Shown here piece after piece: positions 52,190 to 56,073 of a DNA stretch of 64,000 nt; position 1 is the stretch's first letter, and each line of letters begins with the position of its first letter. The notes under the pieces were generated by a model. That model did not search any database, was not told the origin of the DNA, and saw nothing but the letters and a program-made list of their open reading frames with translations. This DNA comes from Pseudomonadaceae bacterium (GTDB lineage: Bacteria > Pseudomonadota > Gammaproteobacteria > Pseudomonadales > Azotimanducaceae). Where the stretch lies: positions 496,001-560,000 of the forward strand of contig JANSXA010000002.1 of assembly GCA_024743175.1 (NCBI GenBank). Direction: 5' to 3'. The position numbers and the translations under genes are program-made.

Positions 52190-52669
52190 ATGAGCCACTT
52201 TCACGACCTGCACATGGCTGATATCAGCGGTCAGGATACCGCTTTTGGTCAGTACAAAGACAAAGTCTGCCTGATCGTAAACTTAGCCAGCCGCTGAGGC
52301 CTGACCAATCAGTACGCCGGGTTGCGTACATTGCAGGAACAATATGCAGATCAGGGTTTTACAGTTTTAGGTTTCCCCTGTAACCAGTTTGGTGCGCAGG
52401 AACCAGGCAGCAACGAAGAGATTCTTGAGTTCGCTCAGTCAAAATACGACGTTAACTTCCCCATGTTTGCCAAAATTGAAGTGAACGGCAGCGGCGCGTG
52501 TGAGTTGTACAAGTATCTCAAAGCTGCAAAAGCCGGAGATGATGGCAAAGCTGACATCGGCTGGAATTTCACTAAATTCCTGGTAGGCAAGGATGGTGAA
52601 GTCCTTGCTCGATATGCGCCTCAGACCACACCTGAAGAAATTGGATCCGACCTGGCTGATTACCTTTAA
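52190..52669 (+). CDS. Selenocysteine-containing glutathione peroxidase (in-frame TGA)
   Basis: A 160-codon frame from ATG 52190 (AGGAG 9 bases upstream) to TAA 52669, interrupted only by TGA at 52295-52297, codon 36. The residues around it, NLASR-TGA-GLTNQY, align exactly with the peroxidatic site of glutathione peroxidases (Cys in most bacteria, Sec in animals). The other tetrad residues are Gln66 (CNQFG), Trp125 and Asn126 (GWNF), so the protein would be a full-length 159-aa enzyme reducing peroxides with glutathione. A hairpin of bacterial SECIS type follows. The usual resolving-cysteine position (EILEFAQSK) holds Ala, not Cys. A frameshifted or dead gene is unlikely. Confidence 0.9.
52306..52333 (+). 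promoter_or_regulatory. Predicted bacterial SECIS element after the Sec codon
   Basis: CAAT (52306-52309), two unpaired bases CA, GTACGC (52312-52317), loop CGGGTT, GCGTAC (52324-52329), ATTG (52330-52333). All 10 base pairs are Watson-Crick. The loop begins 20 bases after the TGA and has G at its second position; both agree with the bacterial SECIS rule of about 16-37 bases and a G among the first two loop bases. SelB would bind it. Confidence 0.7.
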
Positions 52670-52736: not shown

Positions 52737-53453
52737 CTACCAGGGCAGTTCGCCGCCGTCGGCGCGTAGAAACGATCCGCTGGATGCTGCCTCAAGCTGA
52801 TCTGCCAACTGCCAGATCAATGCGGCACATGCTTGTGGGGTCTGCACCTGGCCCTGTCGGCGGGCCAGAAAGGGTTCTGACAAAGCAGTTGCTGTGGTGC
52901 CGGGGTGAACGGCGACAAGTGAGGCATCGTTGCGCCAACGGCCGGCTTCAATGGCTGCCGTTCTAACACCCTGATTCAAAGCGGCTTTAGCCATGCGGTA
53001 GCCGTACCACCCGCCTAACCTGTTGTCGCCAATGCTACCCACCTGTGCGGATAAAAACAGCACCTTGGGTGCGGTCGCTTGTTTGAGCAGAGGTTCCAGC
53101 GCAGCAAATACCAGCATCGGTCCAAGCGCATTGATCTGCACAACGCGCTGCAGAGTTTCGCCATCAAGCTCACGTAGTGCTTTTTCCGGAGAGTGCTGTG
53201 CATCGTGCAGAAAACCTGAGGCAATGATCAGTCGGTCAATTTGATCGACGTCTGCGCAGACCTTCTGCACAGCACTTGTCATGCTTTGTGTGCTGCACAG
53301 GTCCAGTGCCACGGGTAGCAGCTTGTCATGTGATGGCAAGCTATCCGGATCGCGACTGGTTGCCAGCAGGCGGGAAACATTATCATCTGCCAGTGCCTCT
53401 TCACACAGGGCTGCGCCGATGCCGCCTGACGCACCGATAATCAGCGTATTCAT
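52737..53453 (-). CDS. SDR-family oxidoreductase (C-factor/CsgA-like)
   Basis: 238 residues with IIGASGGIGAALCEEA (cofactor site), VALDLCS, the Ser in LFLSAQVGS and the active-site YGYRMAKAALN (YxxxK). This resembles CsgA-type SDRs, often found beside photolyase-related genes. The start codon overlaps the photolyase stop in ATGA, so the two are coupled; the divergent MerR regulator lies beyond. Confidence 0.88.
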   Translation of the reverse strand: MNTLIIGASGGIGAALCEEALADDNVSRLLATSRDPDSLPSHDKLLPVALDLCSTQSMTSAVQKVCADVDQIDRLIIASGFLHDAQHSPEKALRELDGETLQRVVQINALGPMLVFAALEPLLKQATAPKVLFLSAQVGSIGDNRLGGWYGYRMAKAALNQGVRTAAIEAGRWRNDASLVAVHPGTTATALSEPFLARRQGQVQTPQACAALIWQLADQLEAASSGSFLRADGGELPW

Positions 53454-54922
53454 AACGTATTCTGCTCCAGAAACTGCGTGGCTCTGGCGAAGATCCGCTC
53501 GCGGCGCTCGGGTTTCATACGCCCCAGCCCCTGAACCATGAAATTCGCCCGTGCGTTACACCGCAGCAGCGTCTGATGTTTTTCAACAAAACGCCAGAAC
53601 AATCCATCTACGACATCGCACCATTCACCTTTCAGATAATCGCTCATACGCAGCATGTAGTTTGAACCACAAATGTAGGGCTTCGAGGCAAAGGTGCCCC
53701 CTTCTGAGGTCAACCCCATACCAAAAACGTTAGGGACCATAACCCAGTCATAGGCGTCGAGGTAGTTGCTGCTGAAGAACTCATAAGCATCAGCTGGCCG
53801 TATCTCGCAGAGGTTCATCATATTCGCAATCACCATTAACCGCTCAGTGTGATGATTCCAGGCATATCGCTGTGTGTTTTTCAGAGCGCCATCAAGTGGC
53901 GGTATGCCCGTTGTAGCGTTTGACCAGCTGCGCCCCATGCGACGCTGTGCGTTCCAGATGTTCCCACTCCGCATGCCTTTACGGTGATGCAGATAGATCC
54001 CACGCATGAACTCACGCCAGCCGATGACCTGCCGCACAAACCCTTCAACATCGTTCATCGGCACATCGTGGCTTGTGGCGAAATCCATCACCGCATCAAT
54101 CACTTCCCGTGGGGTCAGCAGTCCAATATTCAGATAAGGTGACAGAACACTGTGAAACAATGTTGCTGAACGTCGCGAGATAGCATCTTCATAGGTTCCG
54201 AAGCCAACCAGGCGTTCAGTGACAAATTCTTCCAGCTGCGTTTTTGCACCCTCACGCGTAGTCGGGATCCACAGATTTTCCGCGTTCCCGGGGTGGTCAG
54301 CAAAAATCTGGCGGACACTCTGTAGCGCATCCCGGGTGACATCACTGTGGTTGACCCGTGGCAGTTCCGGCAGTTCGATATGACTTGGCACGGCTTTCCG
54401 GTTATCACCGTCAAAACTCCATTTCCCACCCAGCGGCCGATCGTCCGCCATCAGGAGGTCCAGGCGTTTACGCTGGGACTGGTAAAAGTTCGCCATACGG
54501 GGATTGTCAGCTGCCAGGCACTCAAGGTCTGCAGGCTCCGTGAGAAACATCGGATCCGCCAGCAGCTGCAGCGGCCTGGCTGCTTTCTGCGCGGTGATCT
54601 GCAGGTAGCTTTTCTGTCCGGCATTGGCCGGTGTGAACGCAACAATTTCTTCCACATCCAACTGAGTCGCCAGTGCCACGGTCTGCTGGCATAAGGTTTT
54701 GTTCGCTTCGAGGTCCTGGTAGACCACTTTGTACCCCGCACTGCGCAGCCCATCAGCGTATTCACGCATGGCCGCTATCAGAAACCCGAGCTTTTGCTGA
54801 TGGTACCGGTGACGTGTACACAAACGGCGGTCTTCAACAATCAGAACCGTTGTCTGACCTGCATCTGGCAAACCCTGCGGATCGTACAACTGATTGCCCA
54901 TTATCACTGCTAACTTGGACAT
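53450..54922 (-). CDS. Cryptochrome/photolyase-related protein lacking the usual iron-sulfur loop
   Basis: 490 residues of the deoxyribodipyrimidine photolyase-related (DPRP, PhrB/CryB) family. N-terminal Rossmann-like domain begins LAVIMGNQLYDP; the C-terminal helical FAD domain has WREFMRGIYL, AWNHHTERLMV and the ASKPYICGSNYMLRMSDY block. In known iron-sulfur members that block continues as CxxCxYDP...GxxACPF, supplying three cluster cysteines. Here it continues as LKGEWCDVVDGLFWRF, about ten residues shorter, so the cluster is probably not present. GGAAAGGA precedes the ATG. DNA repair or light sensing is possible. Confidence 0.85.
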   Translation of the reverse strand: MSKLAVIMGNQLYDPQGLPDAGQTTVLIVEDRRLCTRHRYHQQKLGFLIAAMREYADGLRSAGYKVVYQDLEANKTLCQQTVALATQLDVEEIVAFTPANAGQKSYLQITAQKAARPLQLLADPMFLTEPADLECLAADNPRMANFYQSQRKRLDLLMADDRPLGGKWSFDGDNRKAVPSHIELPELPRVNHSDVTRDALQSVRQIFADHPGNAENLWIPTTREGAKTQLEEFVTERLVGFGTYEDAISRRSATLFHSVLSPYLNIGLLTPREVIDAVMDFATSHDVPMNDVEGFVRQVIGWREFMRGIYLHHRKGMRSGNIWNAQRRMGRSWSNATTGIPPLDGALKNTQRYAWNHHTERLMVIANMMNLCEIRPADAYEFFSSNYLDAYDWVMVPNVFGMGLTSEGGTFASKPYICGSNYMLRMSDYLKGEWCDVVDGLFWRFVEKHQTLLRCNARANFMVQGLGRMKPERRERIFARATQFLEQNTL

Positions 54923-55137
54923 TTTTTCCTTTCCAGCGATTTATTCGGGACTTATATTAGACTTTATTGCGAAATTGAGCAATAACCGGTACATTATTTC
55001 GCCAACTGAGGCGTAATTGCACCGCGTTCAGGTGAGCGTCCAAACTTGGTCGAATAGTAGTTTCAGATTGACGCTTCCAGACAAGCCAATGTACCCATAC
55101 ACTTAGACATTCATTAGACGAGATAAACTTCTACGCA
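54923..55137. promoter_or_regulatory. Divergent promoter region of photolyase operon and MerR regulator
   Basis: 215 bases, AT-rich in its left half. An inverted repeat ATTGC-N8-GCAAT lies at 54966-54983, a plausible MerR-type operator near the photolyase promoter. TTGACG at 55068-55073 is a possible -35 for the regulator gene; a convincing -10 was not identified. The regulator start codon has only a weak ribosome site. Confidence 0.35.
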
Positions 55138-56073
55138 ATGGAACAACTCACAATTGCCGCAGTAGCGCGGTTGACCGGGGTGCCTGCACACACCTTGCGA
55201 AAATGGGAAAGCCGCCACGGTATCGGCACCCCTCAAAGAACACCCACAGGCCGCCGGGTCTACGACATGTCCCACGTAGAACTCCTGCGCCTCGTCCGAT
55301 TGCTCAGCGACAGCGGCCACAGCCTCACACACCTTGCGGCCCTGGATCTTCCCGGCCTGAAAGCTCTGGCCAGCAAACACAACCTGCAGGACGCTCAACA
55401 CGCAGTCGTCGACTCGGTATTACTGGTGGGCCACAAACTTGCTCACCTGGCGCTGCCAGCGGCGCAGTTCGAAGAGATCGGTCGACAGGCGTGCAGCGGC
55501 GACGAGTGGTTGAGTCAACCCACCCGGACTCAGCACCAGGCTCTGGTGATCGAACTGGCCACGATTAACCCCGAAGGTGTTGATCACCTGCTCGAACTCC
55601 GTGATACCTATGAAAAAATCATTGTGGTTTACAACTTTGCCAACCGCACCAGCCTGAGGCACCTGGAACTCGGGAGCATCAACGTCTGTCAGGCGCCGAT
55701 CTCAGCCGAGACCCTGATGGGCTCCCTGCAAGCCAAACCCATCGACGCAGATATGCTGGAGCAACCCGCTGAGCGAGCACGATTCAGCGATGCAACGCTG
55801 GCGCAGATTGCAGCCATGACGCCGAAACTGCAGTGCGAATGTCCGAATCACATTGCCAGCCTGTTAATGAGTATTGGCGCTTTTGAACAGTATTGCAGAG
55901 AGTGTGAAGACACGGATCCGAAAGAGAAAGTCTTGCATCAACACCTGGCTGATTTATCAGGTGCTGCAAGAGGGATTTTTGAACAGGCATTGATCGAGGT
56001 TGCCAAGGCTGACAACCTCGATCTGGCCGCTATCGATAAAGCAGCCTCAGAGTCAGGTCTTTCCAGCGTTTAG
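55138..56073 (+). CDS. MerR-family transcriptional regulator
   Basis: 311 residues. The N-terminal winged helix-turn-helix is typical MerR (TIAAVARLTGVPAHTLRKWESRHG, then GRRVYDMSHVELLRLV). The middle part has a Rossmann-like pattern but lacks the DxHxxG and Wx9EH motifs used to bind cobalamin by CarH/LitR proteins. The C-terminal block LQCECPNHIASLLMSIGAFEQYCREC is characteristic of regulators found next to photolyase genes. It is divergent from the photolyase-SDR operon and probably controls it. Its end overlaps the convergent lipoprotein by four bases. Confidence 0.85.
   Translation: MEQLTIAAVARLTGVPAHTLRKWESRHGIGTPQRTPTGRRVYDMSHVELLRLVRLLSDSGHSLTHLAALDLPGLKALASKHNLQDAQHAVVDSVLLVGHKLAHLALPAAQFEEIGRQACSGDEWLSQPTRTQHQALVIELATINPEGVDHLLELRDTYEKIIVVYNFANRTSLRHLELGSINVCQAPISAETLMGSLQAKPIDADMLEQPAERARFSDATLAQIAAMTPKLQCECPNHIASLLMSIGAFEQYCRECEDTDPKEKVLHQHLADLSGAARGIFEQALIEVAKADNLDLAAIDKAASESGLSSV

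Follow-up and report, generated by a model that had tools for sequence, protein, structure and literature searches.

A predicted selenocysteine-containing glutathione peroxidase gene with a SECIS-like coding-sequence hairpin, and about six probable selenocysteine-to-cysteine reversions among its relatives

The window (the whole stretch of 64,000 nucleotides that was analysed) belongs to an assembly of 4.72 Mb in 18 contigs (98.17% complete, 0.67% contamination) and carries, on a contig of 658,920 bases, a glutathione peroxidase (GPx) gene whose frame contains a TGA codon. The features of the locus are as follows.

52190..52669, plus strand: predicted selenocysteine (Sec)-containing GPx gene, 159 residues with Sec36, from the reading of the frame and a GSHPx match, the single such match in the genome
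52176..52180, plus strand: ribosome-binding site AGGAG, 9 nt before the ATG, from reading of the sequence
52295..52297, plus strand: in-frame TGA, predicted selenocysteine codon at the peroxidatic position, from comparison of codon 36 across homologous loci
52312..52329, plus strand: predicted apical hairpin of a bacterial SECIS element, stem 52312-52317 with 52324-52329, loop 52318-52323 (CGGGTT), from pairing in Sec versus Cys loci, compensatory changes and a model match
52322..52669, plus strand: truncated open reading frame expected from standard calling, from the standard ORF listing
52385..52387, plus strand: codon of catalytic Gln66, Q in 173/173 distinct loci
52433..52435, plus strand: codon of Ala82, a Cys in outgroup Cys glutathione peroxidases, from locus comparison; the column aligns with a Cys of yeast Hyr1 (3cmi)
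52562..52567, plus strand: codons of catalytic Trp125 (52562-52564) and Asn126 (52565-52567), W and N in 173/173 distinct loci

An earlier note on this DNA had described a GPx frame from an ATG at 52190 to a TAA at 52669 with one internal stop, an otherwise intact catalytic tetrad and a good ribosome site, and our reading bears this out: the only internal stop is the TGA at codon 36, Gln66, Trp125 and Asn126 are present and invariant across the 173 distinct loci compared, and AGGAG precedes the start. The tetrad of Sec/Cys, Gln, Trp and Asn is complete in the window protein with the TGA codon as its first member. The note's warning about conventional calling also held, the only frame returned being a 115-aa ORF that starts with TTG. 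The read-through protein matches Pfam GSHPx (PF00255) across the TGA, from residue 4 to residue 111, with 144.4 bits (cut-off 27), and it matches NCBIfam gpx7 and PRK10606 with scores under their stricter cut-offs. Among solved structures the closest to it in sequence is yeast Hyr1 (PDB 3cmi; residues 1-155, E 2.3e-47). A read-through scan of the 64 kb gave 13 candidate frames, GPx included, and among them, judged by eye, no second convincing TGA-read-through gene; the others were a pair of complete neighbouring genes, short stretches extending complete genes, and fragments. A promoter scan returned one weak promoter-like site, inside the GPx gene and no more than in shuffled sequence, and a terminator scan two terminator-like sites, both on the minus strand.

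Between the GPx gene and SGL, the interval 52737-56073 holds genes for an SDR, a photolyase-related protein (DPRP) and a MerR/CarH-like regulator. No relatives of these three proteins were found in the relatives' GPx loci (L021-L049 and the Sec loci of L050-L129). A relative of the window's thiolase lies beside GPx in 20 of the 29 loci L021-L049 (1.5-kb flanks) and SGL in 18 of the 29, whereas only 2 of 37 distinct Sec loci of L050-L129 have the thiolase.

A search of 206 genomes from the same family with the read-through protein gave matches in 157. Among the matches listed, 128 genomes carry one TGA, 20 cover codon 36 without a stop and 2 have only partial matches short of that codon; 7 of the 157 fall outside those listed. 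We read 189 GPx loci (L001, the 29 family matches L021-L049, 80 from a genome collection and 79 by coordinates), a sample biased to near relatives because the genome-collection loci were the best 80 of at least 579 relatives. Removal of duplicates by identity of the first 120 nt from codon 36 left 173 distinct loci, which represent a subset of the TGA-GPx genomes and not all 128. Codon 36 is TGA in 117 of these, TGC in 40 and TGT in 16 (56 Cys loci), and nothing else; the comparison with Cys and Sec homologues that the earlier note had proposed thus aligns the in-frame TGA with Cys codons. The TGA occupies the identical codon in all 117 loci, and protein identity to the window GPx ranges from 50 to 76% across the 116 other Sec loci. 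A single sequence could not separate such a codon from a nonsense codon, real (a pseudogene) or false (a sequencing error), in a frame closed under the standard code, but because relatives carry the same TGA, chance or sequencing error is excluded, and since many genomes, across 117 distinct loci, have this same codon together with an intact tetrad, with TGC and TGT as the only alternatives and a covarying hairpin downstream, we give this explanation practically no weight.

Eleven Sec-GPx loci titled Acidimicrobiia or other Actinomycetota (L065, L072, L076, L080, L087, L089, L090, L091, L093, L098 and L103) make up a single starred clade nested in the Sec clade, whose remaining named rows are mostly Gammaproteobacteria; transfer between phyla, or mislabelling of metagenome-assembled genomes, is possible. 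Fourteen phage records gave a GPx match, all below 60% identity.

The absence of selenocysteine machinery had been named in the earlier note as an observation that would speak against Sec. We found the machinery in full: selA (518.4 bits, cut-off 267.9), selB (424.3 bits, cut-off 242.25) and selD (270.9 bits, cut-off 125) each have a single locus above the cut-off, and there is one tRNA-Sec (71.7 bits, Rfam cut-off 47) that ARAGORN likewise called tRNA-Sec, with anticodon tca. The genes selA, selB and selC directly follow one another on contig C7. SelD sits at the C-terminal end of a fusion protein whose other partner is a pyridine nucleotide-disulfide oxidoreductase; the fusion has no internal stop and passes the models of SelD and of the N-terminal domain while not passing the 'fusion_not_SelD' model. 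A prophage-like region with an integrase and a tape-measure protein lies between selC and the selD fusion (C7, about 5000-13900 of L130); the phage integrase is at the end of this region far from selC.

Among relatives, selA is uninformative on the Sec or Cys state, being over the cut-off in 106 of the 128 genomes with a TGA and in 19 of the 20 with Cys among the matches listed. The selA search came up empty in 17 of the 128 TGA-GPx genomes of the family and gave a weak match, below the cut-off, in another 5; selB exceeded its cut-off in none of the 18 genomes searched (the 17 lacking selA and G123). Nevertheless, tRNA-Sec passed the Rfam cut-off in 3 of these 17 (G037, G174 and G063), and of seven candidate loci in seven genomes ARAGORN called tRNA-Sec in G180, G179, G178, G037 and G174 and tRNA-Ser in G063 and G114. 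Both G179 (96% complete) and G180 (93%) combine tRNA-Sec with a TGA-GPx (loci L227, L228, L234 and L235). The SelD fusion lies beside the tRNA-Sec in G180, where it was confirmed, and a similar ORF was seen by eye in G179; neither assembly gave a match to selA or selB, and the sequence examined around the tRNA-Sec, 19.0 kb in G180 and 16.5 kb in G179, contains neither gene. Assembly gaps at the joint selA-selB locus are the likely cause of the missing selA and selB in TGA-GPx genomes.

The genome has other candidate users of this machinery. An AhpC-TSA search of it gave 17 matches, 7 of them with one TGA.

C8:94822, C14:216438, C14:439826, C8:51449, C9:133633, C14:110632 and C5:79368 (L237-L243): seven peroxiredoxin/ResA-like genes with a TGA, from read-through

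In all seven the TGA is at the catalytic position of the redox motif, which reads UTIQC in one, WUPFC in three and UGC in three; of five compared with NCBIfam, one passes WAxxUGC_long. These seven and the GPx make at least eight likely Sec genes, counting from the AhpC-TSA search only, and the genome looks rich in predicted selenoproteins. Formate dehydrogenase was considered as the main Sec user and rejected, as none of five matches exceeded the Fdh-alpha cut-off and none had an internal stop.

Downstream of the GPx TGA lies a SECIS-like hairpin whose case rests on comparison, because the window hairpin by itself is unremarkable (z-scores of +0.34 to -1.92, depending on the stretch folded). 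A stem in a single sequence is weak evidence, since random synonymous codons for the same peptide formed a 6-pair stem in 29,785 of 200,000 draws (15%). With the T of the TGA numbered 0, positions 17-22 pair with 34-29; all six pairs form in 112 Sec loci and five in the other 5 (n = 117), compared with 0-4 in the 56 Cys loci. Third-codon-position entropy inside the stem is 0-0.29 bits in Sec loci versus 0.95-1.76 bits in Cys loci. Every one of the 117 Sec loci has GG in the loop (positions 23-28 after the TGA), which reads AGGTCT in 77, CGGGTT (the class of the window) in 39 and CGGGCT in 1. Both main loop classes encode the peptide AGL in most loci, with several synonymous differences between them.

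Covariation was assessed on 107 distinct 42-nt rows (duplicates and rows with N dropped) against 500 shuffles. Paired cells amounted to 99.4% versus 97.8% in shuffles, and 11 cells were changed on both sides versus a shuffle mean of 1.2; two stem pairs showed two-sided change, a count equalled by 11 of the 500 shuffles, while the covariation score was equalled by none. RNAalifold recovered five of the six hairpin pairs. Kinship inflates the covariation counts: five changes on the tree suffice for pair 21-30 and eight for the loop, and a test on independent pairs found only two on starred branches, too few for significance. When pair 21-30 switches from G-C to A-U the codons GCA..CGT become ACA..TGT, and residues 43 and 46 therefore change as a pair: Sec loci have Ala/Arg (104), Thr/Cys (11), Ala/His (1) or Ala/Cys (1), and residue 46 is Glu in 41 of 56 Cys homologues.

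An element model, built with the window sequence included, found the window site (52295-52336) at 55.8 bits, far above all else in the window or the genome. The SECIS model R1 gave 15 matches in the genome, the GPx site being the only significant one (E 9.4e-14; next, E 0.37), suggesting that the hairpins of the other Sec genes are unlike this one. Twelve of the 15 were inspected, and 4 of the 11 non-GPx matches among them (TGA, open frame on both sides) lay over longer open frames. An Rfam scan of the region returned only a chance snoRNA match on the opposite strand and no convincing family. The TGA is coupled across the compared loci to a conserved, covarying SECIS-like hairpin, and recruitment of SelB by this hairpin is predicted.

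UGA might instead be read through without Sec insertion, by a near-cognate tRNA such as that for Trp or Cys or under a changed code. Read-through by Trp-tRNA is known in general, and beyond this precedent nothing specific speaks for such decoding here; against it stand the full Sec machinery, the occurrence of UGA as a normal terminal stop codon elsewhere in the genome (in 3 of the 7 peroxiredoxin-like genes, for example), a hairpin tied to the TGA state and the replacement of the TGA residue by Cys only, and we consider it highly improbable. We are close to certain, from these comparisons, that the gene encodes a monomeric-type GPx in which UGA codon 36 would be read as selenocysteine by the genome's own SelA, SelB, SelD and tRNA-Sec via the downstream hairpin, with a small thiol as the most likely reductant. 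The earlier claim of a GPx with Sec at the peroxidatic TGA is hence supported by machinery, TGA conservation and hairpin; the hairpin, the missing resolving cysteine and the other TGA genes of the genome lie beyond what it covered.

A gene of this kind is already known. Bacterial Sec-GPx has been in print since 2005, when it was described from the Sargasso Sea metagenome (PMC1088965), and passages of PMC1088965 and PMC2398784 give 5 in the Sargasso Sea and, as we interpret the table, 40 in GOS, in keeping with the earlier note's mention of Sec forms in marine metagenomes. As described in these passages, the metagenomic proteins share with ours the COG0386/GSHPx family and Sec at the catalytic position, and those of the Sargasso Sea also a bacterial SECIS just after the UGA (PMC1088965). 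The Sargasso and GOS examples are metagenomic sequences, whereas the present set consists of whole genomes with machinery, neighbourhood and tree. The E. coli fdhF SECIS (L236) is likewise a hairpin in coding sequence after the UGA, and its decamer GCAGGTCTGC is identical in most GGTC-type hairpins of the present relatives, but its AGGTCT loop has an offset of 20 as against 23 here (3 nt further from the UGA), and the window's loop class CGGGTT (39/117 Sec loci) differs from it. The element model scores weakly at E. coli fdhF (E 0.1 in 10 kb). Vertebrate GPX4-type Sec-GPxs have, to our knowledge, no resolving Cys. They (PDB 2obi and other GPX4 entries) are of the same family and similar length; their SECIS, however, is in the 3' UTR and not in the coding sequence as in the bacterial window gene, and the nearest solved relative of the window protein is yeast Hyr1, not GPX4.

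The Cys at column 82, which we take to be the resolving cysteine of Hyr1, occurs in all 43 outgroup Cys loci but is absent from the 117 Sec loci and from the 13 Cys loci nested among them. The window protein has Ala82 and no Cys in residues 75-95, and on the presence of a resolving Cys at 82 it does not group with the 2-Cys (thioredoxin-type) GPxs. Two such Cys enzymes, yeast Hyr1/Gpx3 (3cmi) and the GPX5 of 2p5q, share the family and a near full-length alignment but have Cys36 and a further Cys (column 82 in Hyr1, column 83 of the alignment in 2p5q) in place of Sec36 and Ala82. Bacterial GPxs are said in a passage of PMC8614756 to have both cysteines, unlike the Sec forms of the present set, which are without Cys82.

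Because Cys82 is absent, oxidised Sec would most likely be reduced directly by a small thiol. In the mechanism that we propose, UGA codon 36 would be decoded as selenocysteine by the genome's own SelA, SelB, SelD and tRNA-Sec, with the coding-sequence hairpin, at 17-34 nt past the UGA, recruiting SelB. Hydroperoxides would be reduced by the Sec selenolate, which Gln66, Trp125 and Asn126 would hold in place, and glutathione or another small thiol would reduce the oxidised Sec, like that of vertebrate Sec-GPx, without an internal disulfide and thioredoxin. Sec insertion, peroxidase activity and reductant are all inferred here from sequence. The enzyme could alternatively work as a 2-Cys, thioredoxin-type peroxidase with Cys27, Cys64 or Cys104 as resolving residue. 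Cys64 is invariant (173/173), and Cys27 (77/117) and Cys104 (83/117) occur in many Sec loci and in 0 of 43 outgroup Cys loci; yet Cys64 is also found in all outgroup Cys forms, which have Cys82 besides, Cys27 and Cys104 are each lacking in a part of the Sec forms, and Cys82 is missing in 117 of 117, so that we judge a 2-Cys mechanism unlikely and prefer direct reduction by a small thiol.

Because the 13 Cys loci nest within the Sec clade, the direction of change appears to be from Sec to Cys. Seven Sec/Cys changes are needed on a quick tree (173 rows) and seven on a careful tree (50 chosen rows); the nested Cys rows of the careful tree require six (bootstrap 5-6, at least four forced by starred branches), a number not fully settled, and a single nested Cys clade was rejected by the AU test (p 6e-5). 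The tree groups were named after the first tree seen, and L142 sits on a long branch. In the 13 nested Cys loci only 1-4 of the 6 hairpin pairs are left, and the trees suggest that Sec reverted to Cys about six times, the SECIS hairpin decaying on each occasion. Eight of the 13 nested Cys loci have Cys79, a residue absent from all 117 Sec and 43 outgroup loci. It is found in two lineages (L132-L134, L136 and L138-L140; and L137) while the other four lineages are without it, and one origin was rejected only mildly (p 0.025). Position 79 is three residues, or about one helical turn, from the lost Cys82, and our guess is that Cys79 serves as a resolving cysteine.

These observations allow a joint reading, with somewhat less than an even chance of being right as a whole, in which Cys82 was lost under selenium, some six reversions to Cys followed with hairpin decay, two lineages gained Cys79 as a replacement resolving cysteine, and the RNA hairpin dictates residues 43 and 46, the base-pair switch showing up as a paired substitution without a reason in the protein. 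Open-access papers on the resolving cysteine or on Sec/Cys replacement in bacterial GPx yielded no report of a Cys79 switch, and on coding constraint by SECIS only one unrelated open-access paper was found. The GPx row of a 2006 table, with columns as we interpret them, has one Sec-GPx and no Sec-to-Cys event (PMC1794560).

For annotation, standard ORF calling reduces the protein to 115 residues and loses the active site, and the same is expected in the 128 TGA family genomes among the matches listed. The interest of this Sec-GPx gene, of known kind as it is, lies in how its relatives reverted to Cys and in the Sec-rich set of redox genes in its genome. Aerobic bacteria rarely retain selenoproteins, according to a passage of a 2026 review (PMC13188914), and the at least eight TGA-containing redox genes of this genome contrast with that rarity; that the present organism lives aerobically is a guess on our part. 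Sec forms, Cys revertants and Cys outgroups within one family offer a direct test of what selenium buys in a peroxidase, and if the joint reading is true, the family would serve as a natural experiment for asking why Sec is retained and what a revertant to Cys requires.
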